A stretch of DNA of 64,000 nt. It comes from Liolophura sinensis. Its lineage: Eukaryota; Mollusca; Polyplacophora; Chitonida; Chitonidae. A model generated the notes under the pieces. It made no database searches. It had not been told where the DNA came from and was given only the letters and a program-made list of their open reading frames with translations. The stretch spans positions 51,073,385 to 51,137,384 of the forward strand of contig NC_088295.1 in NCBI RefSeq assembly GCF_032854445.1, in the 5' to 3' direction. The position numbers were made by a program, and so were the translations under genes. Positions 558 through 63,968 of the stretch are shown here, piece by piece; the stretch's first letter is position 1, and each line of letters opens with the position of its first letter.

Positions 558-675
558 AGGCGGCTCTGGTAGTTTTAACCCATGAATGATCTTGTGCACC
601 GCGCCCGTACACCCACTGCCGACAAATATCACTGCGTCATGTTCACTGGCATTCACAGCACTCCGTACTATATCT
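558..675 (-). CDS. Aminotransferase exon 4
   Basis: This exon has 118 nt, acceptor TTTTATTTTCAG and donor GTAAGA. It encodes a segment running from DIVRSAVNASEHDAVIF to VHKIIHGLKLPEPP and ending in phase 0. The GSGCTGAVHK stretch corresponds to the small-residue loop near the PLP phosphate site in class V aminotransferases. No convincing next exon is visible in 1-557. Confidence 0.78.
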
Positions 676-3600
676 CTGAAAATAAAACAGAAATCAAACA
701 TCACATTGGACAAGTTTGTTGTTTGGTTTGCTTGGAATTTGCTGTTACTTTTTAACATTACTGTGATCATAAAAAGACTGTGTATGCTCACCATATACAG
801 AGCACTTAACCTACCAAAAAGGCTATCTACAGAGCACTTAACCTACCAAAAATGACATCTGAGCAAGTCACAACATTCTAACAGCCGGCCTTCCAGGACC
901 TGACCTTTCACCTTTTCATCTAAGGTGCAAACAGTGTTCATTCTAAGAACAAAATTTTGTGCGCATGCGAGGTAAAGAAAATTTTGTGAAACTTAATAAA
1001 TCCTAAAAGTGACCACACAAACCAATGTAAATCTATACCTGAAGAAGATGACTCAATTGTCAATGGGAGACTTGAGGACGAACTACACAGAAGGTACAAA
1101 TGACAGAAGAGCACGTTTTCTTCTGTGAGGCTGCAGTGCATGTGTACTTCATACATGTTTTATGAGCACATATACACTGATAATTATGACGTAATAAAGA
1201 TAAGAACCTGAGCTCACAGCTTTGGACCGTCTTGGTACAGGCGGGAAGGAGTTTTACAAGTTCCCCATTAAAGCTCAGTCAGGTTTAAAAAGGTCTCTGA
1301 TTCGAAAAACTATTTACCTCTTTTATTTTACCTTATTTCAAGTCTGCAGACTGGTCACACTGGTGGATGTGTCAGTGTTACCTACCTGGTCTCATGTCGG
1401 TATAGTAGTGTCCGTAGACTGGTCACACTGATGGTTGTGACAGTGTTGTCTGTACACTAGTCACACTGGCGGTCGTGACAGAGCCTCATGTCTGTACAGT
1501 GTTGCCTGTAGACTGGTCACACTGGTGGTTGTGTCAGTGTTACCTACCTGGTATCATGTCTATACAGTGTTGTCTGTAGACTGGTCACACTGGTGCTTGT
1601 GTCAGTGTTACCTACCTGGCCTCATGTCTGTACAGTGTTGTTTGTAGACTAGTCACACTGGTGGTTGTGTCAGTGTTACCTACCTGGCCTCATGTGTGTA
1701 CAGTGTTGTCTGTAGACTGGTCACACTGGTCGTTGTGTCAGTGTTACCTACCTGGCCTCATGTCTGTACAGTGTTGTCTGTAGACTGGTCACACTGGTGG
1801 TTATGTCAGTGTTACCTACCTGGCCTCGTGTCTGTACAGTGTTGTCTGTAGACTGGTCACACCGGTGGTTGTGTCAGTGTTACCTACCTGGCCTCATGTC
1901 TGTACAGTGTTGTCTGTAGACTGGTCACATGGGTGGTTGTGTTAGTGTTACCTACCTGGCCTCGTGTCTGTACAGTGTTGTCTGTAGACTGGTCACACTG
2001 GTCGTTGTGTCAGTTTTACCTTCCTGGTCTCATGTCTGTACAGTGTTGTCTGTAGACTGGTCACACTGGTGCTTGTGACAGTGGTACCTACCTGGCCTCA
2101 TGTCTGTACAGTGTTGTCTGTAGACTGGTCACACTGGTGGTTGTGACAGTGTTACCTACCTGGCCTCATGTCTGTACAGTGTTGTCTGTAGACTGGTCAC
2201 ACTGGTGGTTGTGTCAGTGTTACCTACCTGGCCTCATGTCTGTACAGTGTTGTCTGTAGACTGGTCACACTGGTTGTTGTGTGAGTGTTCCCGTATTCTG
2301 GTAATACTTCGGATCGGATAAAGTCTTCTATGAATGATAAGCTTCTGGAAAAGACAGGTCAGGTCATTGGCATTAATGATCACAATTCAGGATTAAACCT
2401 TAAAAGAAAATACACCTCTCAGAGTAGTTATACTGGACATGAAAGTGTGCCTCATATAGTCCCTCAAGAAAAAGCATAAAGTCTGGTGATTTTACACGAA
2501 AGTACAAGCTACCAACGATAGAAGCCAAGCAAAAGTGCTGTACCTCTATCAGGGTAGTCATATTTTAAACCTATAATGATATCTGCAGATTGTTAGTTAA
2601 TGAGAGAGTAGAATTGTGGGAAATCTCATTAAGCCACTGATTTATTAGTGCCCAAAAGTGTACATTAGTCTAGAAGCCAACATGAAGTAGACAAGATTAA
2701 TCCGAAAATCTATTGAAATCTATGCAGTAGTACCTCCAGAGCTCAGAATGAAACATACACCATTATTACTCGTTTACACAAAAAAATTATGAATATGACC
2801 TACAACCAAAAGAAACCTTACAGTTTCAAAGTGAACATCTTTTGATTTATTTCTTCATTTGATTGGTATTTTAGGGCGTATTCAAGAATATTTCACTTTA
2901 AATATGCAACAGCAGCCAGCATTATGGTGGGGGGAAACCCACAACCATCCATAGGTTTCTGGCAAATCTCCTCACATACCAACATCTTCTGAGCTTTTCC
3001 TTCTCTTTCAATCTCCCGCTTATAAAGTTACACTAGCAGAAGTTGATAAACATAATATTTCTGAAACACACGCTCAAACTAAAAACAGCACATAGCTTCA
3101 ATACAACATTTTACAAGGAAAGCATGTACCTGCAAGGAATACAGCTTTAAAAAATAAATTTTACTAATACAATTAGGGTATGATTACTAATAGCAATAAA
3201 ATATATCCCACAAATCGTTCTATCACATACCTTCCTGAGGCTGTATAGTCCATGTACATCACTACAAAAAATATTCAAAATGTGAAAGATAGCAGTAAAA
3301 GTAGAATGTACAATCCATACAAAAAGCTAAAATACATTATTCACATTCATGGTCACGAATGCAAAGACATGGTGCTGATTTTTAAAAAATCTGCATTACT
3401 TAGTACGAACCCTGAATGAGAATGATCGGATTCATTATACTTCACCAGTGCAAATTATTTAATTTTTCCAATGGTGGCAAATTAGTTTAGTGCATTACTT
3501 TCATATTGTTTTCTTATTTGACATTCAATTGGGCCTTGATGCTTAGCCACCGGTATCGCTGTAAGGAACATAACAGCTTTAATTTGAATTTTTTATTTGA

Positions 3601-5106
3601 TTTCATGGGATGAAACTGGACAGAACCCAGAGAAAACCCACAACCATTCTCAGGTTGTTGCCAGACCTTCCCACATACAACTGGAAAGGAAGCCAGAATG
3701 AGCTGGAGTTGAACTCATGGCAGTCACACTGGTAAGAGGCTCCTGGGTTAGCATGCTGCACTAGCACACTAAACACCAGGTCACGAATAGATGTCCCAAT
3801 AAAGGAATATGTATATGTCGGGATAACTGTGGGCAGCTATAGATATACAACCAAGGAATGGGGACTGTAAATGAACATCTGAACAGCCAACAAACTACAA
3901 GGACAGCAACCTTAATTGTCATTACTGGTACAATTTACAAAAGCTGTGGAATGTAACTCTGTGTATCAAGTAACACCAAGTGTTGAGAGAGTTACGGGGA
4001 ATAACTGCTTCTAATGTGTCGGATCGATGTACGCCACATTTACCCCATATTCACACACGCATTAAATCTTCCCTAGTGTAAATCGATGTCAACTGAGTGA
4101 TACCCATAATCAACTAATCTGTTCTGAGTCTCGCTGAACGAAAAACGATCCATGACAACTGCACAAATTCACAAAATAAATACATTTTCAGACGCTACAC
4201 CCACTGTGGCCGTAAGCCGTCTGTCACCATTGGGATCACTTGTGAGAAGAAACAAGGCTTAAGCAATAAGCGCCATCCGACGACAGGGGGAGTGAACCAG
4301 CCAAACGGACAATCAGACTTGCCTAGTGTTACTATAATGACTGCCAAAGGCATTATCTCCCTTCAACGACCTTATTTTTTTTTTTCTGTACTCACATCGA
4401 TCACGCAACTCGTATGTATGACTATCAGAATGGGATGGTGGCCACAGTGCGTATAGTGTCTGACAATGTATTTATTTTGTAAAGTTGTATTGTTGTCATG
4501 GATCGTTTTTGGTTCAGCGAGACTCAGAACAAACTAGTTGATTGCACCTGGGGACCACTTGGTTGACATCCATTTACGATAAGAAAGATTTAATGCGCGT
4601 GTAAAGATGCGGTAGATATGGCTTATCCCCGATATGCCATATTAAAAGCAGTTATCCTCCGTAATTCTCCCAACACTCTGTGTTGGTCGATACAGACTGT
4701 TACATTCCGCAACTAAATTTACAACTGCCCAACAGGTGTAAATTTTCGTTCACTGTCGACAAAAAAAGAAACAACCGAGTACTTCCAAATTCGTGAATAC
4801 GGCCTTAAACAGCAATGAATCAAAGAATCAATCTTCTACTTTCTATTTACGAAAACTGGGTCCTTAATGACAGACTCATAACCATTGTGATTTATGTGAA
4901 GTCAAACCTTTCCTTGGTCCAAAAGGTCCATTGAAAACCTTGTCCTTCCCAATGACACTTTCTGATACTAACTGAAGCAGCCCAGTGACATCTGATGAAT
5001 AATTTCGTAATGATTTTTTATGATCTAATTCTTGAGGAAGAGCATAAAATTTTCTGTTTCTAGCAGCCTGCTGGCTGCCATTTTCACGTGGCCTGTTCAC
5101 GTCCAT
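558..5106 (-). CDS. PLP-dependent class V aminotransferase / cysteine-desulfurase-like protein, N-terminal part (exons 1-4)
   Basis: Four exons on the minus strand join in frame into 155 residues: 5106-4908, 3261-3231, 2344-2228 and 675-558. Junction phases are 1, 2, 2 and 0, each with GT donor and AG acceptor. The start ATG at 5106 has G at -3 and +4; the frame stays open upstream but runs into low-complexity sequence. Landmarks are FNGPFGPRK at the end of exon 1, MDYTASGR across exons 2-3, YGNTHTTTSVTSLQTTLYRH in exon 3 and FVGSGCTGAVHK in exon 4. These match, from memory, the N-terminal third of a widespread family of fold-type I PLP enzymes often annotated as uncharacterised aminotransferase C660.12c-like, related to cysteine desulfurases. 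The PLP lysine lies in the C-terminal part beyond the left edge, so catalytic competence cannot be judged. The substrate is unknown. Exon 3 is followed by a tandem array made from itself. The gene is head-to-head with KIF4. Confidence 0.82.
1340..2290 (-). repeat. 68-bp minisatellite made of exon 3's 3' end plus its splice donor
   Basis: A core motif recurs at exactly 68-bp spacing at 1508, 1576, 1644, 1712, 1780, 1848, 1916, 1984, 2052, 2120, 2188 and 2256. The last is the true exon 3. Older, partly deleted copies lie at 1345, 1413 and 1452. On the minus strand each unit reads as the aminotransferase segment GNTDTTTSVTSLQTTLYRH plus EAR, then a donor-like CAGGTAGGT. Nearly all units keep that donor; the unit near 2018 has CAGGAAGGT instead. 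68 is not a multiple of 3, and the first in-frame codon after a skipped donor is TAG, so the extra units should be intronic. The high similarity suggests recent expansion or homogenisation. Confidence 0.93.
2228..2344 (-). CDS. Aminotransferase exon 3, parent of the adjacent tandem array
   Basis: This exon has 117 nt, acceptor TTTTCCAG and donor CAG|GTAGGT. It encodes SLSFIEDFIRSEVLPEYGNT followed by HTTTSVTSLQTTLYRHEA, ending on two bases of an arginine codon completed by exon 4. Its last ~64 nt plus about 4 nt of intron are the unit that is repeated downstream. Only this copy keeps the upstream exon half, the acceptor and the histidine in NTHTTT; most array copies read NTD. If this donor is skipped the frame hits TAG at once (GCC AGG TAG). 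Confidence 0.82.
2844..2985 (-). mobile_element. Degraded SINE fragment (body and tail)
   Basis: A diverged minus-strand copy retains the tail GATTGGTATTTTA, the ATTCAAGAATATTTCACTT block, the CCAGCATTATGGTGGG block and AACCCACAACCATCC. The tRNA-like head is missing. It lies in the aminotransferase intron between exons 2 and 3. Confidence 0.65.
3231..3261 (-). CDS. 31-nt microexon of the aminotransferase
   Basis: A 31-nt exon encodes VMYMDYTASGR when joined on both sides. On the minus strand it sits between TTTTTGTAG and GTATGTGA, a good acceptor and donor. Its phases (enters with one base supplied, leaves two) fit exons 1 and 3 exactly. The DYTASGR motif is a hallmark of this aminotransferase family, which supports the exon despite its length. 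Confidence 0.78.
3591..3781 (-). mobile_element. Degraded SINE fragment (body and head)
   Basis: A minus-strand copy with AACCCACAACCATTCTCAGG, GCCAGACCTTCCCACATAC, the B-box region GAGTTGAACTC and the head GAGGCTCCTGGGTTAGC. Its 3' tail is lost. It is clearly older than the copies in the KIF4 introns. Confidence 0.65.
3945..4720. mobile_element. Foldback / MITE-like element with ~270-bp inverted arms
   Basis: The left arm (about 3945-4215) is the reverse complement of the right arm (about 4437-4720) along most of its length. Shared blocks include GGAATGTAAC at the tips, TAACTGCTT, GCATTAAATCTT, GTTCTGAGTCTCGCTGAAC, AAAACGATCCATGAC and CAAAATAAATACATT. About 220 bp of unrelated sequence forms the loop. 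No coding capacity is visible, so this is a non-autonomous DNA-transposon or foldback element in the aminotransferase's first coding intron. Clear target duplications were not found. Confidence 0.75.
4908..5106 (-). CDS. Aminotransferase coding exon 1
   Basis: This exon has 199 nt: 66 codons plus one base. It starts at the ATG at 5106 and ends AGG AAA G before donor GTTTGA, a weak match to the donor consensus. It carries the family signature FNGPFGPRK at residues 58-66. A run of T on the minus strand (about 5162-5151) followed by an AG two bases before the ATG could be the acceptor joining a noncoding 5' exon to this one. Confidence 0.75.
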
Positions 5107-6772: not shown

Positions 6773-9700
6773 ATGCCAGAGGAGAACAAAGTTATTCCTG
6801 TGAGGGTGGCGGTGAGATGCCGTCCCCTCATAGAGAAAGAGCTATCTGAAGGGTGTCAGGAATGTCTGCAGTTCATGCAGGACGAACCACAGCTGGTCAT
6901 CGGCAAGAACAAAGCTTTTACCTACGACTATGTGTTCAAACCTAAGGACTCTCAAGAGCTGGTGTATGACCAGTCAGTCAAATCCCTTGTGAAAAATGTG
7001 TTTAAAGGTGGGTTCTTAGATTTGAATTATACATATATGTATTGTTTTATATGTATATTGTACAGGTAATGTAAAATTTATGTTTTTACGGAATTACTGC
7101 TATTAACTTCAACCTTAATTTGATAAATGAAATATGCTTAAAGGATACATGTACATGAAACAGTTGGTTTATATCTCTTAATACAACTTATATGGTAGGG
7201 ATTTTTAGCGTCATCAAACAGTACAAAACACCTTCTCAGCTTTCTTATTGGAGTGTAAAAAATGGCTTTAATCTACAGTTTACCTAAGACCTCAGCAGTC
7301 AGTATGGAAAATAAGTAGCCTGCTGTGGTGATGTCAACGGTGATAGCCTTCGAAACAACTTTGTTGGTGCGAATGCCACAATTGGGGTGCTAGTCCCTCA
7401 TTTCCAGTATGTGCATCAGTGATGTCATTTCTGACCATTGATGGAAAATATATCTAAAATAGATGGGCTATTAAGAAATTTATAGTACGCGTTGAAAATG
7501 AAAATTTTTTTTTCTAATTTTTTTGCCATACCGATTCCAGTATCTAGTTTAATTTTCCTTAAAACCATATTCTTCGTTTTATAGAACCTTTTCATGTATC
7601 CCCTAACTTCAGTTAGTCCAAAATTTCTTTCATTTGGATTATTATAGAAAATGTTGAAAAAAATTTAACTTTGTGCTGTGTATGTGTATATTGGACTTCA
7701 GGATACAATGGTACAGTGTTGGCATACGGTCAGACGGGCAGTGGTAAGACATTCACAATGGGTGGCGGTTATCAAGACTCCCTGAGTGGGGATGAATTCA
7801 TGATGGGGGTTATCCCCAGAGTTGTAAGGGATCTCTTCAAGGGGATAGAAGACAAGGATGGATTTCAGTTTGATGTCCGAGTGTCGTATTTAGAGGTTTG
7901 TTCAATAATTCACTTTGCATGTTAATTTGTGACAGATGTGTCAGTTCATGTACATTTTGGTATATTTTGTTTTTACTCCATCTAAATGATGAGAAAGTTT
8001 TAGTGCTTTGATAGATGGAAGTCCTACATTTTCTCTAGTTGACCGTGTACCCCCACCATTAAATTCAAGTGAAACCCACTTATTAAATTTTTATGTAAAA
8101 ATAAATCAGAACCGGGGCATAATCCACAGGACTCACAGTTGGGAAAATTTTAGTGCAAAGCTGCATATTATGTGGAAAAATCTACCAGGAAACTATTTTT
8201 TAAGTACTTGTTTGTATGCACTTTACAGTAAACTGGTACTTTATCTAGGTCACCAACTTAGAATAAAAAAGTTGAGAATGTAGATATATTAAAATTAACA
8301 AAAATCAAACAAACAAACCTTGCTTTTGTATATTTTGGGAAATATATCACCAATTTGGACATTTGTGGCTGCAAATTGGGAAACAGACGGTGAGCATTTG
8401 GAATGGAGCCAAAATATTGGCATGTACAGTATACATGTAGGTAAATTGTGCTCTGAGAACATCTGATACTTGACGATTGTGCTGTAGTAGAATGAGCTTT
8501 ACATTTAGTGACACTTAACAAAACGTGATTTTCTGACGTGATTTCAGATATATAATGAGGAATTGATAGATCTTCTGACCTCAGCTGCCAAGAGAGATCC
8601 CATTGTGATCAGGGAGGACACTGGAGGAGGGATAAAGGTAAAGTCATTATGTTGTCACCTTCATTATTAGATGACCGGCCCGGATAGCACAGTTGGTGGA
8701 GGGTCCGCTGCGGGAGCGGTAGATCCAGGATCAATCCTGTGTCACACCTAAAGTCTCACATCTAAGACTTTAAAAGAGGAAGTTGTATCTTCCTCGCTTG
8801 GCGTTCAGCATGAAAGGGATAGTGCAACAACTGGTTGACCCGTATCAGTGTTATGGCTCGGGCGGGACGGCTTAGTTGCCTTCAGTAAGTCTTCTCAGTG
8901 AAGCAGCACTACATAAAAGAGTGGTGGAAATCCGTCGTGCAACAAGGAGGCACATGACATACACAATAAGGATTCCTTCGCCGTCATATGACTGAAAAAT
9001 TGTTGAGTACGACGTTAAACCCCAAGCACTCACTCACTCACTCATTATCAGATGTACATGCAGTTGCTCTTTTAAGTCCTCTTAAATGTAGGACGTCCTG
9101 TAAGGTAATTGCCCTTATTTCAACTTATGTTGTCTAATATTAGACCGCTGTCGTATATGTGAAATATTCTTGAGTACGGTGTAAAACACCCGTCAAAGAA
9201 ATAAAATGTAATACTAGCTGTATTAACATTGCGGATGAGCATGAGATTTTTTTTTTTTTTTTTTGTGATTAGCAAATTACTGAATAATGTTTCATGAACT
9301 TTTTGTGGAGAAATTCATATCATTTACTGTGTATCAGGTTGTCATGTTGAAGCTATATCTTTTGTGGTGCTTTTACAGCTGCAGGGAATGCAAGAGGTAG
9401 GGGTAAACTCCTACCTGGAGACAATGCAGCTTCTGGAGAATGGATCCCGAAGTCGAACAACAGGGGCAACAGCAATGAACAACACGTCCAGTCGTTCCCA
9501 TGCCATCTTTACCATTCATATAGATCAGCGAAAACTAGATGATGAGTACGTTTGCTGACTGAAGTGTAATTGATACAGCTATTGTTTAGATGATTCCCAA
9601 TCAAGTTATCTATGGAAAACAAATTGTACATGCATCATCTTTAATACAATAGCGTGCAGTATGCACTCCATTTTTGCACATGCTAGGAGAAAAAAAAAAA

Positions 9701-10976
9701 TTGTTATACTATATACTTTTCTAGATTTGTATTCAGTCTCTTTCAGTTCTTAGCTGTGGATCTGAACATGAAATGTTACGAAATGTTCCTGGAAGATCAA
9801 TTTAAGGTGAAATTTAACGTATTTGAAGCCAGTGTACTCAAGCATGTTGTATATAAACGTTTATGTTCTGTACATGTAACAGTTAACTACTTGTTGGTTT
9901 TTGTCTCCTTGTTTTACCTGTGAGTGTTGACTGGCCTTGTTCTGTTTCAGCAATGATCTCTGTCATGTGAAGTTTCATCTGGTTGATTTGGCTGGCTCAG
10001 AACGTGCCAAAAGGACCAAAGCTGAAGGGGAGCGCTTCAAAGAGGGCATCAGTATTAACAAAGGTTTACTCGCCTTGGGCAATGTGATTAGTGCTCTGGG
10101 GGATGACACAGAGAAGAGAAACCACATTCCATACAGAGATTCTAAGCTGACAAGAATACTACAAGGTAAGCCAAGCTCCGCACGTACTTGTCCAAAACAC
10201 CTGGATTTAGCCCGAAATGTGGTCAAGATTCTATAATCAGCTATCCTTGTAATTCCGTGCTGGAGATTTAACATGGGGTGGAAGACCAGGTGTTGGTGAT
10301 ATGTGACATTGTGCAAGCGTGATGTCTGATGACAGCATACCATGACATGTTGAGGCCTTTAACATGAACATTATTAGTTACATTACATTATTAGTTAGGA
10401 CATGGATGTGTATGGTAACCTTAGTAACCCTCTTATTGGGCGAGGCGTCAAATGTATGGTGCCAGAAACCCTCATATTTCTGTATCCTCTCATTCGGTGA
10501 CCGTGTAATGAATTTATCGTGCAAAAGTTCAGCACTGAAGGTCGATGCAGCGGTGAATTGCTCGAGGACATCATTGTTTTCACAGCCAAACAAAGGGAGA
10601 TAACCTAGTCAATCTACAGCATCAGCTGCAGTGTACCGGAATATACACATTCCCCACATGACTGTTGCTATACAATGAAATCAAGAGCATTTTGTCTGAT
10701 GTGGGATAATGGTTGAATCCCCAACTTTGAAAGGTTTGAAAAAGAAAAATGCAATGGTCTGCGAAGGTAACCATAACTCATACTGCTAATTCTGCTGTAG
10801 ATGCATTGGGTGGGAACAGTCATACTGTGATGGTGGCCTGTATCAGTCCTGCGGACTCTAACATGGAAGAGACACTGAACACACTGAGGTATGCGGACAG
10901 AGCCAGGAAGATCAAGAACAAGCCCATAGTCAACCGAGATCCTCAGGCTGCAGAGATCCTCAGGCTCAAACAAGTG
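6773..10976 (+). CDS. KIF4: KIF4 motor-domain exons (coding exons 1-6)
   Basis: Six exons encode residues 1-359. VRVAVRCRP (10-18) forms the first strand. [16 protein letters not shown] carries the ATP-binding P-loop, VSYLEIYNEE is split between exons 2 and 3, and [13 protein letters not shown] holds switch [21 protein letters not shown] holds switch II and the start of the alpha-4 region. [14 protein letters not shown] is the microtubule-binding helix region, and [20 protein letters not shown] is alpha-6 and the neck linker. All nucleotide-binding residues are intact, so an active ATPase motor is expected. Loop lengths match vertebrate KIF4 rather than KIF7/27 or KIF21. Confidence 0.93.
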
Positions 10977-13900
10977 GTATGACCATCTGTACTTAGACAA
11001 ACATCATAAATTCGACATCATTACACCCTGTGTCACTAAAATTCACTTAGTCAAAATCAAAATGCAGCTTCCTGAATCTTACGTCATCAAAATGTGCTCG
11101 CAGTAGAATCCCTACATATGTTGAGTTGAAAATTGTTTAGTTCCTGCATAAACTATGTTGAATAACACTCTGGTTTCTAATGTAATAACTCTAAAATGTT
11201 CATTTCCAAGTCATCTTCAATGTCCGCGCTACAGACCGCATCTTGGTTGACTCTTCTCTTTCAGCATCTTAGTGTTAATATTCTAGGGTCGCACACTTGA
11301 ATTATGCATGCGGCCCTGAAGCATGGATACTTATGGTATAGTTGCCATCGTGACTGATACTGCCGCCAACTTTTCTGTGTATGATACGGGACTATTTTGA
11401 TTGATACTACCTCCAACTCTGCTGTGTATGATGCGGGACTATTTTGATTGATACTACCTCCAACTCTGCTGTGTATGATATGGGACTGTTTTGATTGATA
11501 CTACCTCCAACTCTGCTGTGTATGATATGGGACTGTTTTGATTGATACTACCTCCAACTCTGCTGTGTATGATATGGGACTGTTTTGATTGATACTACCT
11601 CCAACTCTGCTGTGTATGATTCGCGACTAATTTGATTGATACTACCGCCAACTCTGCTATTTTTCGTAGGGCCTGTACATGAAGAAATGCCCAGGAAATG
11701 TGTGTTTTGGGACAAGTGGCCATTAATACCAGAATTTAAAGATAATTTGCAGAGAGGCACAAATAAACACATAGCATACCTTACAAACTAGAGGTTAACC
11801 CGTTCAATATATATGTGATAGGGGAGGAAGCTGGAGCTAACAGTCCCACTCACCAGGGTCAAAATGGTGCGAGTGTATGAAATTTTTCATTGCGTTAAGT
11901 TAGGGTATGAAGGTGAACAGCAGCCCAAATGCTAACTATTGTACACAGACTGAGTTTACAGTTGCTGGCATGGTAGTTGGTTTCTCAGAAATAGCCAGGG
12001 ACGACAATGTCATTCACACACGTTGTTACTGGATGTGGTTCACTTCATGTCCACATGGGACTGGGTGCCTGTGTGTGAGTGTGACATACCACATATATCG
12101 CTTCCATTTGGAATCTGGCAGATTTTGTTTTTGGTAAAATTACGAAGGGAAACTGAAGCTATGTCCACTGGATACGTGGTATGGCTCAGCAGAAAGCTCA
12201 AAATGATTTTAAACTATAACATCAGAGCTTTATTCATAATTTTGTGATCATTTATTATTTAGATTTTACAGTTTCATATGATGGATTACTGCTACCTCCT
12301 GGCAATGTGTGTTGTAGGTTCAGCAGCTACGTTTGCAGCTGATTGGTCAAGGTGGTGTAATGTCATTACCTGGTGGAGATGATGTGGGAGTGAACACTAG
12401 GTATGTACAGTCAACATCGTGCAACCTAAGACTAATGCAACACTTGATCATCAAACAAGTGATAGTCAAATACTTTACTACTAAAATGTGTGTATGTATG
12501 TATTCTTGGGTTTAACATCACACTTAACAATTTTAAGTCATATGACGACAAGGAGTCATTAGGTGCATATACTGTGTCTTTGGCAGGGTGAGTCCATGCC
12601 ACCAAAGTGGTGGCACCACTGAAGTATCAAGACACCCGGCATGACACCCCACCCAGTCACATTATACCGACTCCAGGGCAACTAGTCCTGTTCACCTGCT
12701 CTAATCTTTCAGTGCTGAGTGCCAAGCGAGGCAGCAACAAGTACCATTTTTATAGTTCAGGAAAAGTACCATTTTTTTGATCCAGGATCTCCAGACTTTG
12801 AGGCAGACGTTCTAACCATTAGGTCACCATTGTTTTTCAAAGAATCCGAAGAAGTCCTGTTTGAATAAATATCTGTGAACTTTTCAGATCAAACCATTGT
12901 ATCATTGAAATATATTTACAATAATTCTTTCTCTATTTTCAGTGTTGAGCGCTTTTATTATTTTATTTTTGGCCTGTCAGATTGATGTTTGTCAATCTGT
13001 CCGTCCATATGGGTATAATACATCATTCCATAATTGCCTGATATTTGTAAACAATGAAGAAAACTCACAGGTCACTCTTCTCTTCTGAGCTGTATATGAA
13101 TCAAGACTGGGAATGTGGATTGTCCATCTGTCTGTTACATTGTTTCTTGATGTGTTATTGCATTGTTTGTATAATGTATAATTGGGCTATAAAACAATTA
13201 AAACTCTATATAATACCCTCTGAATATTGAATATTCCGTTACATGTAGTTACTTAACGACGGCTGATTAAAATACACTGGGTCTGTTGACGAGTCATTGC
13301 TGACCCCAAATGTTTCCATAACCTGTCATTGAGTAACCGTGTAACAAATTTAAGCCACAAATGATCTATGGATGAACTTGAGTGCAGAAGGCTGATGCAT
13401 TAGGGAATCGCTTCAGCAACGTTGTTGTTGTCACAGGCAAACAAGGGAGATAATGTAATCAACACACACATACATGTCTGCCACATGCAGGATACCTGAG
13501 TAAAACATGTATGATATTGTCTGATTATCAAAAGCAGGGCTGGGTAAACATTGTTATTCACAATCTTACATGTAACTCATCTTGTTTGCAGTTCAAGTAC
13601 TCAGTCAGGCTCGGAAGATTACAAAAACCTCTTGGAGAAGAATAAAAAGCTGATGGAAGAGAACAATAAACTAAGTAAGGAGCTGCAGAACTCAGTAGAC
13701 CAGAGCACACGCATGTGTGAGCGAGTGATCGCGTTAGAGGCGAGCCGCGACAAGCTCAAGTCCAGGATTCAGGAGCTTAAACAACACTCAGGGTCAGTGC
13801 CTTTTTTCTTACTTAAGAAGCTTGTTTAGACAAGAAGCAGTTACCTGACTGACATATCAGGACAGTGCAAAGGATTTATTTATTTATTTATTTATTTGAT

Positions 13901-19900: not shown

Positions 19901-22900
19901 TTTGAAAGGATCCTTTCACTTTCTGTGTATCACTGATTTCAGGGATTGAAACAGCAGAGAGTGAAATTGATGAAGCAGATGAAGGAAGATGCTGAACATT
20001 TCAGAAAGTGGAAACAGCAGAAGGATAAAGAAGTATTACAGTTGATGCAGAAGGCAAGTGTTTATCTCCAGCCACTGATGATCTGCTCTCATTGTGGTAG
20101 TGTAAACCCTTCTGTACCAGTGGCTGCACAAACCCTACATAATCCTCACTCAGGAATGAAGTGTATTTTCTTGATGTGCGTTTTTTGTTACAGGATCTGG
20201 AAATAAATGTAATAATTAAATCACATTTTGAAGAAGGTGTACATGTGTGACATTGATGTGGTGAATGTCAAAATCCCCCCCAAAATAGCAGGCTGTGCTA
20301 ATTTTTTGTCCAATCTGTTTTCTGTTTTTTTTTAACAGGACCGAAAACGCCAGTGTGAAATTGCCAAATTGCAACATGTGAATGAGCGCCAGCAGACTGT
20401 CCTGAAGCGTAAGGCTGAGGAGGTATAAACAGACTGCACTGGGAACAGTCTAGTAGTAGACCTGAGTAATTGAGATAGTCACAGTTTGCAATCTAAGAGG
20501 GTACTGTTCACAATTAGTCGACAAAACTGAAGAAAGTAACCAGAATTTGTGCTAGATATGTGGAGTCACGGGTTTGTATAGGTGAAATATTACTGATCTC
20601 TCTGTAGGTTACAAATTGAGTAAATAATTAAATAATGATGTGTTTGAAAAGGCAAATGACCAGTGCATTTAGGGGTGTATAAAGACTACAATTGGCATAC
20701 TTCCCACTAAACCTGTTACATGTATTTGATCTACCAGTACGCTGTAAAGATTTGTGTTTGTGAGGTTAATTTCTGAGAGCTCTCAAATGGTTTCTACTCA
20801 AATATCCAAAACATTAAATGTGCCGGCTCCAGTAAGAGATATGTTTGTGGCGATTGTAATAGTCTGCAGTGAGATGTCATGTCTTCGGATTTATGATTTA
20901 CCAAATGTTTTTAGGCAGCAGCTGCTAACAGAAGACTGAAGGAAGCCATCGCTAAACACAAAGATGTCATGAATGAGAGATCAAAGAAACTAGAGAAATA
21001 TGACAACTCAAACATTGGTAACAGGGTTCGAGTAAGTAACTCTGCATTTATATAGGAGTGATAACTTGGGAAATTAAACCACCTCTGTGTGTGTTGTAAT
21101 AATTCTGTTGTAATGGATTCCAATTTAGAAAAAGAAGATGGATTCCGTACAATTTAGCAGATAAATCTTAATGGTGATAATCTACACATTTGGGCCTTTC
21201 TGTTCACTCTATGGTTATTACACACGTGTACATGTATATGCCCTTACAAGGGCAACTGTGGACAAGGTGGCTAGCATGCCAGCATGACGCATCCAGTCTT
21301 TTAACACGGGGTCTAAACAAAGGCCTACACATTCTGGGTGCATGTTCAGCTGTTGCAAAATTGCACTGAGTCAGTTAACTTCTTTTATAATCTTTTTTCA
21401 AGAAATTGTCATGTAAAAGTCACTCCCACCCCCTCCCGCTGTCAGTTATGGTGATTATATACTGTGTTTTAACATGTGTGTGTTACAGCAATGGTTGAAC
21501 CATGAGTTAGAGGTGCGTGTCAGTGTAAGGGAGGCCAAGTATCACCTAGACAGCTTACTGAAGGACCGTAAGACACTGACCGGTCAGCTCAGACACCTGG
21601 AGGAAATGCTGGATGAGGGCCCCACCAAGAAGGTACCACAGATACACATCTTGAAAAGTTTACTTTATAGCATAATTCAAAATGTAAATAAACCTAAATT
21701 TTTACTCAAAAGAGGCAAAACTGATTATTTCCTGATTAATTAGTGATCCAAGAGATAGACGTCACATTACTGCACACAAAAGGTGGTGGGAGTAGGGGGA
21801 TATACTGGTTCCATCGTGATCTTTGGTTAACTGTATGAATCCCTTGACATGATACTGTACCAAGCTTGGGATGACTTTTTTCTTCAAGTTTGATCCTCCA
21901 GACTCATTGTCCTTTCTTGTGTCTTAGTTCAAATTTTTGTTTCCACGTGATAACTTACTTCAAATGTGGCCACTCTTTTTCTGCCTTACTTCCATTGGTT
22001 TTGTGCTGCTATTCCCACTTATAGGAAAGTCCATCGGGGAAAAAAAGAAAGATTATAAACCTGCAGGAGTTTTGTTAGACATTCAGAGGTTTTCATTCAT
22101 GCCTGATTTGGATCTACTGTTGTACTTTAAAATTTATTTATTTTATTTGATTGGTGTTTTACGCCGTACTCAAGAATATTTCACTAATAAGTGGGTGGAA
22201 ACGGGCAGAGCCCAGGGGAAACCCATGACCATCCGCAGGTTGCTGTCAGACCTTCCCACGTACGGCCGACTTTTATATTAATGAAGCGGCAACACAACAG
22301 TTTCTATTCAGGATAATCCTATTGACTCAGTACCAACCATAGGACTGACATAAAGTGAAGGTCTTAAACATGCAAGAACTGTCTGTTGCCAGTCTGCTTT
22401 GAACAGTGTATATTCACACATTGAAACAGTATGTATCTGATATGTAAAACAACAACAGTAAAATGCTTGGATGCTTTGCCTTCGAGTGGGTGCCCTTGTT
22501 GGGGTAAGTCCTCACTTTGTGACATTGTTACACAGACTGTAAATGAGCTAGTAGACAAGACTGTGTGCATCACATGTTACACAGACTGTAAATGAGGTAG
22601 TAGACAACATTGTGTGCATCACATGTTTCACAGACTGTAAATGAGGTAGTAGACAGGATTGTGTGCATCACATGTTACACAGACTGTAAATGAGGTAGTA
22701 GACAAGACTGTGTGCGTCACATGTTACACAGACTGTAAATGAGGTAGTAGACAACATTGTGTGCATCACATGTTACACAGACTAATTGAGGTAGTAGACA
22801 ACATTGTGTGCATCACATGTTACACAGACTATAAATGAGGTAGTAGACAACATTGTGTGCATCATATGTTACACAGACTGTAAATGAGGTAGTAGACAAG

Positions 22901-25900
22901 ACTGTGTGCATCACATGTTACACAGACTGTAATTGAGGTAGTAGACAAGATTGTGTGCATCACATGTTACACAGACTATAAATGAGGTAGTAGACAAGGT
23001 TGTGTGCATTACATGTTACGCAGACTATAAATGAGGTAGTAGACAAGACTGTGTGCATCACATGTTACACAGACTGTAAATGAGGTAGTAGACAACATTG
23101 TGGGCATTGCATGTTACATAGACCGTACATGAAATAGTAGACAACATTGTGTGCATCACATGTTACATAGACTGTAAATGAGGTAGTAGACAACATTGTG
23201 TGCATTACATGATTAACTGAGGAAGTGCATATGATAGAAGGAGTAAGACATTTACATTCAGATTGAAAGGCAAATAACTATTTTGCAAAGTGGCATCTTA
23301 TGGCGCACGTGTCCTAATCTGACAGCAAGTCATTTAGTTTTTATAAGAGACCAGGCAATTGCGCAGATATTACCTATTTTGACATACAAAGCTGAAATCT
23401 ATGCTAATTGACAGATTGTGAACTTACAGCAATGTTCAATCTTCTGTGTGCTGCAGATAGAGGGTGTAAGTTTATTACAACCCCTCTAATTACAAGAACA
23501 CGGTGAGAGTGACACATGCTGTAACAGACAATTTGTATGTGTGCACTGGTCCTTTAGGGTGGGTGTTTTTTTTTTTTGTTTTTTTTTTTCTGTGTTAATT
23601 TGCCAATTTTGAGCAATTTTGTGTGTGTAATAACCTCCAACTGTGACCGCCAAGGGTTTTCTAACTAGCTGGTGTTGTCCATCTGGAACACTACCTTGTT
23701 TTTCCCCTCAAAAGCTGTCCTTGTGCATATATAACTAACTCTTCTTACAGCGCTGCCAGTCACTTTGTCACCACCAACCACACGGGCCAAACACATATGT
23801 TCAAAATGCAAGTACTCTTGTGTTTTATAGAATGGCCTTTTCTTTTGTGGAAATGTTCTCCTAGTTTTTCCAACTTGCATGGTGTCAGCGAGAGGTCTGC
23901 TTGAAGTGTTGATCACCTTGCATGAGATTACTTTTTGTACAGGCCAATCCGTTTGTGGATTTGTTCAAGTTTTTGTTTCAGCATGTTATCTTCATTCAAA
24001 TTCTATGGTTTGATCTCATACTTCTTTCTTACTTACTTTCACAATTTCTTGTGAAACCTTGCTTGCAATTGCTTTTCGTTAAGGTTTCTCTATATGTCTC
24101 TGTTCAGTCAAATGTTCAATTCTAACTCAGTTTAAGCTCGATAAATTTAACTAAGAAATGGAATACCAGTCCCTTGACGTGATATTTTGCCTTGGATTGT
24201 TTTTCTCCAGGATTGTCTGATCCGTTAAATTTTCATTCCATTGCAATGTCTCAAAAGTAAAAGTTATTTCCTAATTTGTTTAAGTTCATGAAATGCAAGA
24301 AGTTTTTTTTTCTCACCACCCAATTATGTATGAGAAACAAATCTGAGTAGCGCATGCAACAACTCGTTTAATTCATTAATTCAGCGTGCTTTTTATATTC
24401 AGAGGATGGCCTGGACTGGAAAAGGAGACTCATTTGAAAAAAGTTTGGAAATAGAAGATATCCAAAAACACATAGAAACATTAAAACAGGAGATAGGACT
24501 AAGGTGAGATGAACAGATGAAAAGGTAATTATTGAAATACTTTGAATGGAATGAGATTGGAGTGATGGCTTGTATATTATTACTTTTAAGTTTGAATGTA
24601 TTATATAGGGGAGTAACAATGCAAAGTTGTTGTAACAGGTACACATCACTTTTCTCTTTCAATATATTTTGAGACCTTTTTTTCAAAGTGTAATTTGTGT
24701 AAATCAAAAATAAAAACCTTCCTTACAAGTGTGCTAGCCTATATAATAATTAACCAAGAGATTGCTGTAATTTTGCACATGCTGACATGGCTAACATGCC
24801 TGCAGTTGACCTGTTCCTCGGTTCTGTTCTGCCTCACACCTGATAAATTTACATGTACAAAAAGTATTAGTGATTAGATTACAAAGATTAACCAATTAGG
24901 ATATACTGTATGTAAGCCTACCAAGTCCAACTACACCCTTAAATACATGTATTTATTCCAGTTTGGGAAAGAATAGTGAGGGTGGAGTCGAGTGGGTTTA
25001 CACACCTTAACTGCCAGCGCATCTTCAAAGACTTGCTTTAATCTCTGACTCTACCTATGGACCAAAGAGTATTCAAAGCTGAAAAGTGTTGCAGTTTATA
25101 AAGTTCAATTGCAATTTTGTGAAAATGAAATGTGAACATTTTGTGTTTCAGGAATGCCCAGATCACAGATCTGCAGGACAAAATAGTTGATGCGGAGCAT
25201 GGTTAGTAGTAATCAGTCAACTGAAGGTGGTTACAAAGGGAAACCACCAAGATTTGAACAGTAATCCCACAAATCCCACAACAGTAATCCCACAAATCCC
25301 ACAACAGTAATCCCACAGATTACCCCTGTAAAGCTTGGCATACACCAGAGCTCAAGACCCAACTCGGGGGCCTTCGAGGCTCAGTCGGTTAGCGCACTAG
25401 CGCAGCGTAATGACCCAGGAGTCTCTCACCAATGCGGTCGCTGTGAGTTCAAGTCCAGCTCATGCTGGCTTCCTCTCCGGCCGTACGTGGGAAGGTATAA
25501 ATGAAATATTCGTGAGTACGGATTAAAACACCAATCAAATAAATAAATAAATAAGTCAAGACCCAACTCAACCTGACTGTTGGGTTGAGTCATAAGACTA
25601 AAAGCATGATGGAATTAGAACTAGTTTTACTCTGTATGCAGTTCAGTCTTGAAGTTGCATGCCTATTAACGACTGGGACCAACTCTGCAGGATCATTAGA
25701 GTTGAGTCGTGTCTTAAGCTCATGTGTGCCAAACTTAAATTCATGTAAGATTCTGTACCGTTTTTGGTTTCATTAATTCCAACAATCTTGTGTTGTAGTG
25801 CACTTAGGCTGTCTAAAATGTATTTATGACTTTTTGTTTTAATATTAACTTGTTTTGTTATCCCCTTGTCGGCATAGTTGGTGGAGAGGATAACCTCTTT

Positions 25901-33816: not shown

Positions 33817-34383
33817 GGTTTGTATTGTAGTAAATACATGTATGTTCTTGTTGCCTTGTGTATTTTATTCATTCTGACTCATGAATCATTGCTGGCTAGT
33901 GAGTCAGGAACTGGGTGGAGTCCAATGTCTTTTGGCCGCTTGGCCCAGTTTCCTCCACTCATTAAATTGCAATGTAGTAGTGCGAGAAAGGGGTGGATCC
34001 ATTTCTGAATATGGGGTGGGCATGGAGTGTCAAATTAGGTGAGACTCCAGGGTACGGTCTATGAAAAATAGTTGCACCTTAGAAAACAATGTGGGGGTGG
34101 GGAATTGTTCTGTTGGATAGTGATCTGACATGCCATTCCAACTTTTAACTGGAGAAGCTGATTATAATATTGTATGACATGAGCAATCAAAAGTTTTGTT
34201 AACAAATGTGCTGTAACATCACTGACATTGACACTAGAAAAATATGAACTTTATTTACTGATCGGGACTTTCTGTGGCGACTCATGATGGTGTAAAATGT
34301 ATCATTTATGTAATTTTGGATTTTTATGTTTTTTCCTGTGGCGCTAGAGTCTGCCCCAATGTAAATATCTATTCGCTTTACTC

Positions 34384-35262
34384 CAATGGCTTCCTAGTAC
34401 CATTATCTTACCAAATCTCTCATTCTCTGACAGCATCCTAGTGTCATCATCTCGTCAAATCTTTCATCCTCTGACAGCATCCAAGTGCCATCATCTCACC
34501 AAATCTCTCATCCTCCCAGTAGCATCTTAGTGCCATCCTCTCACCAAATCTCTCATCCTCCCAGTAGCATCTTAGTGCCATCCTCTCACCAAATCTCTCA
34601 TCCTCCCAATAGCATCCTAGTGCCATCATCTCACCAAATCTCTCATCCTCCCAATAACATCTTAGTGCCATCATCTCACTAAATCTCTCATCCTCCCAAC
34701 AGCATCTTAGTGCCATCATCTCTCCCAGCATCCTAGTGCCATCATCTCACCAAATGTGTCATCCTCCCAGTAGCATCCTTGTGCCATCATCACACCACAT
34801 CTGTCCCATCCTCTGATAGCATCCTTGTCCCATCTCACCAAATCTCTTATCTTCCAATGGAATGCTAGTGCCATCATCTCACTAAAAATGTCTCATCCTC
34901 CAGCACCCTAGTGCCATCATCTGACCAAACCTTTCATCCTCCCAATAACATCCTAGTCCCATCATCTCACCACATCTCTCTCATCCTCTGACAGCATTCT
35001 AGTGCCATCATTTCACCAAAACTCTCAACATCTTCATAGCATCCTAATGCCATCATATCACCAAACCTCGGATACTCCAATGGCAATGCTAGTGCCACCA
35101 ACTCTCCAAATCTCCCGTCCTCCATTGGCAATGTTAATCCCATCAACTCTCCAAATCTCTCATCCTCCAGCACCCTAGTGCCATCATCTGACCAAATCTT
35201 TCACCCGTCTATGACATCCGAGTCACATCTCACCACATCTCTCATCATCCACAGACTCTCCA
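34384..35262. repeat. 45-bp minisatellite, first block
   Basis: About 19 degenerate copies of a 45-bp unit: AGCATCCTAGTGCCATCATC, TCACCAAATCTCTCATCCTC, CCAAT. The unit is a multiple of three, so both strands have open 15-residue repeats where copies are least diverged (minus strand 34447-34731: WEDERFGEMMALRCY type). Coding use is unlikely because reading frames close at indels in older copies. Confidence 0.9.
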
Positions 35263-35976
35263 GGTAGTATATCTTATCTGGGACTATATTTGACCAAAAC
35301 GGTTTCCTCTCTCGCAGACAACAAGAGGGATAGTTTCAGTTTCGACATTGTAAATTTTCCTTACTTGCTGTCCAAGTGCATATGGCGTGTACACATCTCG
35401 CCTTTCAGCATTTGTTAGCTCCTGTGTATTATGTGACTCTCAATCAACGTCACAAGTTTTTACTGTAAAATTTAGTTTATCACGGTTGTTTCATCAAATG
35501 CCTTCACTCCAAGTTTTTTAAGTTTTACAATGAGTATAATTCTCTTGTAAGTAAATACGGACAGAGCGCCCAGAATCTCTGGCGCTCTTCTTCATGATGG
35601 TGTCTAATTCCGCTTAACCCAGGGCTAGGGCCTGCGTATTCATCGTGTTCAATTAGATCGCCGCTTTGGATATATGAACAGTTGCAATCAAAGCGCAAGT
35701 GAGACAAAAAATTTTTTACCGACAACTGATATTCTGGCATGGTACACAGTTTGAATACTGATTTCCCTCAGTCGCCTAGAACATACCTTGCGTCTTTCCT
35801 ACATCATTGAAAACTGTTGACTGCTTCTCTTTGCACGATTCCATCCTATTTTACGTACTTTTAGTTCTTTCGTGGTTTGTGTTATACGTCGTTTTGGGAA
35901 TTGGCCTTGCGATTAATGACCCGGAACGTCCTTATTGGTTGACGGCTCTTGTACGAATGTGCTTCGACGCATAGAT
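35263..35976. other. Non-repetitive segment splitting the 45-bp minisatellite
   Basis: About 0.7 kb with none of the 45-bp motif. It begins CCAGGTAGTATATC and ends GACGCATAGATT. No ORF of note, terminal repeats or target duplication were found, so it may be an old insertion or the ancestral sequence between two expansions. Confidence 0.4.
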
Positions 35977-36870
35977 TCCTAGTGCTTTCATCTCACCAAA
36001 TCTCTCGTCCTCCAATGGCATGCTAGTGCCATCAACTCACCAAATCTCTAACAGCCTCCAAGTGCTATCATCTCACCAAATCTTTAATCCCTAACAACAA
36101 CCAAGTGCTATCATCTCACAATATCTCTCTTTTCCTCCAACAACATCCCAGTGCTATCATTTTACCAAATCTCTCTCATCCTCCAACAGCATCCTAGTGC
36201 CATCATCTCACCAAATCTCTCAACCTCTGACAGCATCCTCGTGCCATCATCTCTCACCTTCCAACGGCATGCTAGTGCCATCAACTCACCAAATATCTCT
36301 TACCCTCCAATGACATCCTAATCCTATCATCTCACTAAATATCTTGACCTCCAACGGCATCCGAGTGCCATCATCTCACCAAATCTCTCCTCATGCAGCA
36401 TCCTAGTACCATCATCTATCCCATCCTCCAATGGCATCCTAATGCCATCATCTCACCAAATCCATTTCATCCTCTTAACCACATCCTAGTGCCATCATCT
36501 TCAAACCCTCAATCAGCATCTAAATGCCATCATCTCGCATAATCCAACGGCATGCTTGTGTCATCACCTCACCAAAACTCTAGTCCTCTAACAGCTTCCT
36601 AGTGTAATCATCTCACCAAATAGCTCATCCCTCAAGTACACCCACGGGTCAGAATCTCGCCAAATTTCTCCTTCAATGGCATCCTAGTCCAATCTTACCA
36701 AATCTCTCATCGTCCAGTGGCATCCTAGTCCAATCATACCAAATCTCTCATCCTTCAGTGGCATCCTAGTCTAATCTTACAAAATATCTCGTCCTCCAGT
36801 GGCATCCTAGTCCAATCTTACCAAATCTCTCATCCTCCAGTGGCATCCTAGTCCCATGTCACCAAATCAT
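35977..36870. repeat. 45-bp minisatellite, second block
   Basis: More diverged copies of the same unit as 34384-35262, with frequent 5-15 bp indels. The end (about 36660-36865) has a shorter, more regular subtype around GGCATCCTAGTCCAATC. Confidence 0.85.
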
Positions 36871-62995: not shown

Positions 62996-63495
62996 GGATA
63001 TATAAGAATACCTATATCTTGTCGCATGCATGAGCAAATATGGACAAAGCGTTCAAGACTGCTGGCAATCTGTTTCGTATATCTGTCATAGTTGTAGCTT
63101 ATTCCCATCAATACGGGGCTCTAGGGGCCATATAAGCATCCATGTCAATTACATCAACAATGCTTTTATGAACAGTTGTAATCAAAGCGCTACTGAAATC
63201 TGTATTCTGATACTCTAGTATTCAGATATTTACAAATATTTGTATTCTGACGGTTCATCAAAGAACATGTTCCAGAGTATCACAGAAACATTGTTTTGCA
63301 GAGTGGGTGAGTTGGTGCTAGATGAGTCCAGTCAGTTCAAGGACTATATAGGACGCCGGCTCGACGCCAACGCTGGGTGTACAACATACTAAGCTACACC
63401 TCTATACTTTGTACAGAGGAGCTAAAAGTATTAAACCGTAGTATATGAACACCAGCAGGTGCATGTATCTTAACGATATACAATAATATTGATAT

Positions 63496-63968
63496 ACAGG
63501 CATCAGAGTATTAACACCAGCAAGTGTGTACAGGCATCAGAGTATTAACACCAACCAGTGTGTACAGGCATCAGAGTATTAACACCAGCAAGTGTGTACA
63601 GGCATCAGAGTATTAACACCAGCAAGTGTGTACAGGCATCAGAGTATTAACACCAACAAGTGTGTACGGCCATCAGAGTATTAACACCAACAAGTGTGTA
63701 CAGCCATCAGAGTATTAACACCAACAAGTGTGTACAGGCATCAGAGTATTAACACCAACAAGTGTGTACAGGCATCAGAGTATAAACACCAACAAGTGTG
63801 TACCGGCATCAGGGTATTAACACAACAAGTGTGTACAGGCATCAGGGTATTAACACCAACAAATGTGTACAGGCATCAGAGTATAAACACCAACAAGTGT
63901 GTACCGGCATCAGGGTATTAACACCATCAAGTTGTGTACAAGCATCAGAGTATTAACATCGGCAAGTT
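63496..63968. repeat. 34-bp minisatellite at the right edge
   Basis: About 14 copies of a 34-bp unit: GTGTACAGGCATCAGAGTAT then TAACACCAACAAGT. There are single-base variants (CAGC/CCGG, AGG/GGG) and one 1-bp deletion. Plus-strand frames through it are open only by chance. Confidence 0.93.

Follow-up and report, generated by a model that had tools for sequence, protein, structure and literature searches.

Minisatellite-like duplications of exon boundaries, named mirages, have been described in the globin genes of lancelets, where one of them copies an exon 3′ boundary (PMC3087553). Mirages are reported from lancelet Adh3 and the globins BflGb6 and BflGb9, and also from TnC and PGBD5 (PMC3087553; PMC3902484). 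The mirage units of Adh3 measure 10-72 bp and regular splicing is reported to be undisturbed, and in BflGb6 the units at the cluster boundary are described as escaping homogenisation (PMC3087553; PMC3902484). These lancelet structures have been suggested as a route to new introns (PMC3087553). In humans, the CBS gene carries a 31-bp VNTR, c.1444_1467+7(16_21), that is present in 16-21 copies (PMC2630376) and is located at exon 13-intron 13 (PMC1395315). The variant name gives a unit of 24 exonic and 7 intronic nucleotides. Alternative splicing was reportedly described in the primary paper on this VNTR.

In this work, we found an array of this type in a class-V aminotransferase gene of the chiton Liolophura sinensis, and further examples in other genes of the same genome. 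Like the lancelet mirages, the chiton arrays consist of head-to-tail copies of an exon-intron boundary that lie beside the real exon, on its donor or its acceptor side, and many, but not all, of their units keep AG/GT. Unlike the lancelet mirages, their host is a mollusc rather than a cephalochordate, and the chiton case is known from genome sequence alone. The unit of the aminotransferase array resembles that of the CBS VNTR in joining an exon end to the first intron bases, but it is 68 bp long rather than 31 bp; copy-number polymorphism is a feature of CBS, whereas the chiton array is read from one assembly. AGGT sites repeated in a tandem array are also found in human UBC (PMC10809524), but each UBC repeat is an entire coding unit and is spliced stochastically, whereas the chiton copies are intronic and interrupted by stop codons. 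Finally, introns have been reported to arise when exon segments that contain AGGT are duplicated in tandem (PMC3087553; PMC2812944; PMC4974935). The chiton locus shares with this process the duplication of exon sequence together with a splice signal, but no new intron is present, and the existing intron has simply become longer.

A preliminary description of this locus knew of no described case of the layout. This claim to novelty fails because the lancelet mirages and the human CBS VNTR share the same layout. What is new is the recurrence of boundary-spanning arrays in a chiton, a mollusc with abundant minisatellites. An intronic 27-bp minisatellite is described in an abalone TSSK1-like gene, and the text available for it does not state whether a boundary is spanned. 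For chitons, the word "tandem" is absent from the main text of one genome paper (PMC11068029), and the terms "tandem repeat" and "minisatellite" from the main text of another (PMC12005716). Among publications judged mostly by title, we found no chiton report of boundary arrays or their frequency, and such a report may exist.

Structure of the Aminotransferase Gene

The window analyzed here is a stretch of 64,000 nucleotides (C1:51073385-51137384) within a genome of 609,464,459 bases and 632 contigs. The aminotransferase gene lies on the minus strand and was modelled with 14 exons, four inside the window and 10 past the window start (in L002 and L003). Those inside the window are exon 1 (4908..5106), which runs from an inferred ATG start codon to a GT donor in fitting phase; exon 2 (3231..3261; 31 nt), which has AG/GT borders and a fitting phase; exon 3 (2228..2344; 117 nt), which codes for ..EYGNTHTTTSVTSLQTTLYRHEAR and is the source exon of the array; and exon 4 (558..675), with its acceptor at 675. 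In addition to its place in the gene model, exon 3 is spanned by the alignment with a bacterial homologue (L014). Intron 3 (676..2227) is 1552 nt long, and the array occupies more than half of it.

Every border of the 14-exon model is AG/GT, except that exon 1 begins at the ATG, and the phases are consistent over 506 open codons; the model stops where reading stopped, without a stop codon at its end. The limits of exon 3 (2344-2228) and the exon 4 acceptor given in the preliminary description fit this model and are upheld. The predicted product hits PF00266 with an E of 3.8e-39; among cysteine-desulfurase-like structures its best match is at 8.7e-28, and it has 45% identity to a Streptantibioticus contig protein (L014). 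The reading frame is intact and, judged by this open frame, the GT-AG borders and the agreeing phases of its 14 exons, the gene as a whole looks intact, with no sign of a pseudogene in these features. Exon 13 is a probable exon, placed by its splice borders and phase alone; it is graded so because it falls mostly within a gap of the L014 alignment and the phase fits with or without it.

Intron 7 of this gene is mostly filled by another array, with a 56-bp unit and 78 copies (L002 1947-6317). A link between this array and an exon was rejected, as the boundary scan presented below found no duplicated edge there.

Origin of the Exon 3 Array

A tandem repeat was called by TRF at 1483-2289, with a period of 68, 11.9 copies, and 93% matches. 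Register comparison on the minus strand resolved it into units: unit 1 (2222..2289) is composed of the final 62 nt of exon 3 followed by GTAGGT, and thus contains the authentic donor, whose first intron base is 2227. By TRF and register comparison, 11 further 68-bp units (units 2-12; 1474..2221) follow in exact register. The distal end of the array (1340..1473), delimited by TRF and motif search, is irregular and includes a 38-bp sub-repeat, a CAG-GTAGGT motif at 1385, and a partial unit.

When compared with unit 1, units 2-12 have 66, 65, 61, 64, 64, 64, 65, 65, 64, 62, and 58 matches out of 68, respectively. In a control with 200 shuffled units, compared at every 7th position of 5.2 kb that included the array, the best value was 32/68; chance similarity of the units to the exon 3 end (58-66/68 vs at most 32/68) was therefore rejected. 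The upstream half of exon 3 has no in-register repeats (11-13/55 matches at five offsets). All copies lie downstream of 2227, within the intron, and one edge of the array is the authentic exon boundary. The array thus originated from the end of its own exon 3 and the donor CAG-GTAGGT, as first proposed. The earlier count of about 13 additional copies included two irregular end pieces, and the 11 copies spaced exactly 68 bp apart are upheld.

The motif CAG-GTAGGT has 11 occurrences, namely, the real site (2227), nine in-register copies (2159, 2091, 1955, 1887, 1819, 1751, 1683, 1615, and 1547), and one out-of-register copy (1385). Of the 11 in-register copies, nine keep the full motif and agree with the view that every unit carries a near-identical donor, but in unit 4 the GT has changed to GA and in unit 12 the motif is lost.

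A DNA search of the genome, in which very common words were skipped, placed the array at one location, and all of the 14 protein matches listed at E ≤1 fall within the aminotransferase gene. On these grounds, an unrelated genome-wide satellite was rejected as the source, and the proposed tie between the unit and its own gene is borne out.

Two positions distinguish the real exon 3 from the array consensus, and one of them produces the His of NTHT. This residue is also found in L014, the single homologue compared, and at the corresponding position of units 2-12 there is no His in any of the 11 units (eight Asp, two Val, and one Asn). Because the His is kept in the exon and in L014 but absent from these units, it seems that the real exon 3 has been under constraint while the copies drifted.

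Boundary-Spanning Arrays at Other Exons

A boundary scan of the aminotransferase gene covered every modelled boundary (14 donors and 13 acceptors) and found duplication at 2/14 donors and 0/13 acceptors. The exon 3 donor scored 59/60 and the exon 13 donor 53/60 (at an offset of 59), with at most 31/60 elsewhere. At exon 13, the exon end and its donor GTATGT are repeated in a 59-bp unit with 2.2 copies (minus strand; L003 4754-4883, about -15100 to -15230 in window coordinates), and copy 2 retains GTATGT after GGG. The exon 13 array is probably another exon-end duplication of the aminotransferase gene.

For families other than the aminotransferase, we surveyed exon matches of P450, CCT (PF00118), and kinesin (PF00225), and scored those in which 44-nt windows with an identity of at least 80% crossed an edge of the match. 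The sample was non-random: the 30 best ranked P450 matches, the 30 best ranked CCT matches, and five kinesin rows in the window gave 4/65 positives; a further 20 kinesin rows, taken from the first 26 by leaving out two in the window and four with many stops, gave 2/20; and 5 of 14 CCT matches that were previously uncut gave 0/5. The aminotransferase loci L004-L013 lay outside this survey. In total, 6/90 exon matches were positive (P450 0/30, CCT 4/35, and kinesin 2/25), with four cases on the donor side and two on the acceptor side, within two chaperonin and two kinesin genes.

Among the donor cases, the CCT exon of L051 (C8:53404471-53407662, minus strand) ends with ALAQ followed by GTGTGT and is copied in 66-bp and then 88-bp units. 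The exon of L059 ends with IAR followed by GTGAGT (units of about 60 bp), that of L062 with AADK followed by GTGAGT (109-bp units), and the kinesin exon of L088 with GQR followed by GTAAGA (units of 68 to 73 bp). In the two acceptor cases, for which the exon start was read by eye, a 41-bp array in L060 (C8:53410569-53413982, minus strand) and a 64-bp array in L079 (C8:681521-683030) extend into the authentic 3′ splice site. L051, L059, and L060 share a strand, fall within a 9-kb stretch, and were treated as one gene; the gene of the L051 exon is presumably CCT3-like.

Several other repeats were noted. A 36-bp array with GTAAGC (L099 6-362), located upstream of a CCT exon match and uncounted in the survey, may be another boundary array. 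In the window, five kinesin motor-domain rows (6815-10913, plus strand) are found beside the aminotransferase gene, and a 47-bp array with 6.6 copies (11351-11658) follows these kinesin exons. Inspection by eye recognised no exon in the window arrays at 11351-11658, 22526-23211, and 63495-63958; this reading left out 34383-36868 and shorter TRF rows. Also, eight tandem hemocyanin beta-sandwich matches occur in 11.5 kb at C8:37880506-37891931, as would fit a mollusc genome.

Donor Conservation, Exon Edges, and Reading Frame

The preliminary description suggested that the array may tune productive splicing with decoy donors. Under this reading, a chain of U1-binding sites would compete with the authentic donor and tuned nonsense-mediated decay would set the enzyme level, with copy number as the dial. 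Retention of the complete motif by nine of the 11 in-register copies is in line with such a role, as is the rate of change in the exon 3 array itself, where donor positions are changed at 1/99 and exon positions at 12/231, although this lean to kept donors is non-significant (P = 0.12). The pattern was not seen when the 35 copies of five donor arrays were pooled: 17/315 positions are changed in the donor 9-mers, against 41/735 in the neighbouring 21 nt of exon (P = 1.0), in a comparison where divergence is capped because similarity to this same stretch was used to pick out the copies. The pooled donor motifs are no better kept than the adjacent exon sequence. With low power in each array, L051 (donor 0/90 vs exon 7/210; P = 0.11) and L088 (1/27 vs 10/63; P = 0.16; 3 copies kept in this count vs 9.3 by TRF) have fewer changes in the donor, whereas L062 (5/54 vs 5/126; P = 0.17) and L059 (10/45 vs 7/105; P = 0.01) go in the opposite direction. 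GT is present in 33/35 copies above the similarity cut in the five arrays, and kept donors are over-counted here because copies less than 77% similar to the real boundary, including the donor-less unit 12 of the exon 3 array, were dropped.

The distribution of arrays also speaks against decoy donors, as there was no sign of enrichment at exon edges in the survey loci and their flanks. Arrays account for 10.2% of the flanking DNA at 80 loci and span 9.7% of flank points. Fewer of the exon-match edges are spanned (6/160; P = 0.007), a value that understates the rate per true edge because the end of a match need not coincide with a splice site, and that would be 7/160 if a second array in L060 were counted (a 27-bp array that begins past the donor, excluded as the match reads through the intron). 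In the aminotransferase gene alone, 2/27 modelled edges are spanned, and with this gene added the total is 8/187 (P = 0.009). Decoy intervals drawn in the flanks gave 32/240 positives, which is a rough control as the draw was unequal between long and short loci. The depletion of arrays at exon edges is an indication at most, since flank points are non-independent.

For the reading frame, the earlier claim that any later donor brings an immediate in-frame TAG is correct: past 2227, the frame reads AGG TAG. Such a stop after every later donor would suit a decoy function. It lies 64 nt upstream of the junction that donor 2 would form, and a stop codon so placed upstream of an exon junction generally leads to degradation of the mRNA. 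Because of this position, and because more exons follow, mRNA decay would be expected from later-donor use. Among the other arrays, L059 and L088 also have an immediate stop, but the stop is found 19 nt past the exon 13 donor, 66 nt past the donor in L062, and 432 nt past it in L051. The values for L051 and L062 indicate that the arrays do not share the immediate stop of exon 3 as a design. With the pooled donors, exon edges, and stops taken into account, the decoy-donor proposal has gained little support, and we regard it as unlikely.

In the L051 array, the 66-bp units are a multiple of 3 and the frame meets no stop until 432 nt past the donor, such that each later donor would add 22 residues.

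Explanation of the Array

A tolerated neutral expansion, the other option raised in the preliminary description, fits best with the pooled donor, edge, and stop results. The exon 3 array is probably a mirage-type minisatellite and a neutral by-product of plentiful minisatellite growth, tolerated through continued use of the authentic donor. For the mutational mechanism, donor choice, and mRNA decay, we infer the following course. A tandem duplication with breakpoints in exon 3 (before AACACT) and just past GTAGGT would have carried the exon end into the intron together with its 5′ splice site, and the array would then have grown by unequal exchange or slippage. In this minisatellite-rich chiton genome such arrays arise widely, and those that cross a splice site would persist if the authentic site is still chosen. 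Under exon definition, the exon 3 acceptor would be paired with the nearest donor (2227) to yield the 117-nt exon, and the copies would leave with the intron. If a later donor were used on rare occasions, a TAG would stand right after the common exon end, and the resulting mRNA would be degraded. Where a 5′ splice site is duplicated, the copy closest to the 3′ splice site can be the preferred one; for this reason, the first donor is not the certain winner.

A far-reaching alternative, which we hold to be decidedly unlikely, is that, throughout the genome, minisatellites that span splice sites continually supply chitons with new exon ends. If this were true, in-frame 66-bp units such as those of L051 would provide blocks of 22 residues per later donor, and arrays like that of exon 3 would be poison-exon dials that depend on copy number. 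New introns and protein insertions would then accumulate over time at a rate unseen in most animals.

Recursive or dual-specific splicing, in which the AG-GT copies serve as acceptor and regenerated donor for stepwise removal of the intron or for mending a wrong first splice, is very doubtful. AG-GT is present in each kept unit, and human UBC is reported to use tandem-repeat AGGT both ways (PMC10809524), but the stretch before each AG (ACATGAGGCCAG) is purine-rich and without a pyrimidine tract. By eye, no acceptor with a pyrimidine tract was found within the exon 3 array. Lastly, an assembly artefact, with the repeat collapsed or falsely extended, is hardly credible despite the error-prone nature of tandem arrays and the 14x HiFi coverage given for the published assembly (PMC11068029), as private substitutions distinguish the units and the same layout occurs at unrelated loci. 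The copy number of the exon 3 array in the assembly may be off.

Implications

Boundary arrays invite false exons and are a warning to gene predictors. As natural experiments, they set at least ten almost identical donors after a single acceptor, an arrangement in which RNA could directly reveal the rules by which a 5′ splice site is chosen. Taken with the aminotransferase gene, the small sample studied here has eight exon edges (one at a probable exon) in five genes of a mollusc, which suggests that the phenomenon tracks minisatellite abundance rather than lineage.
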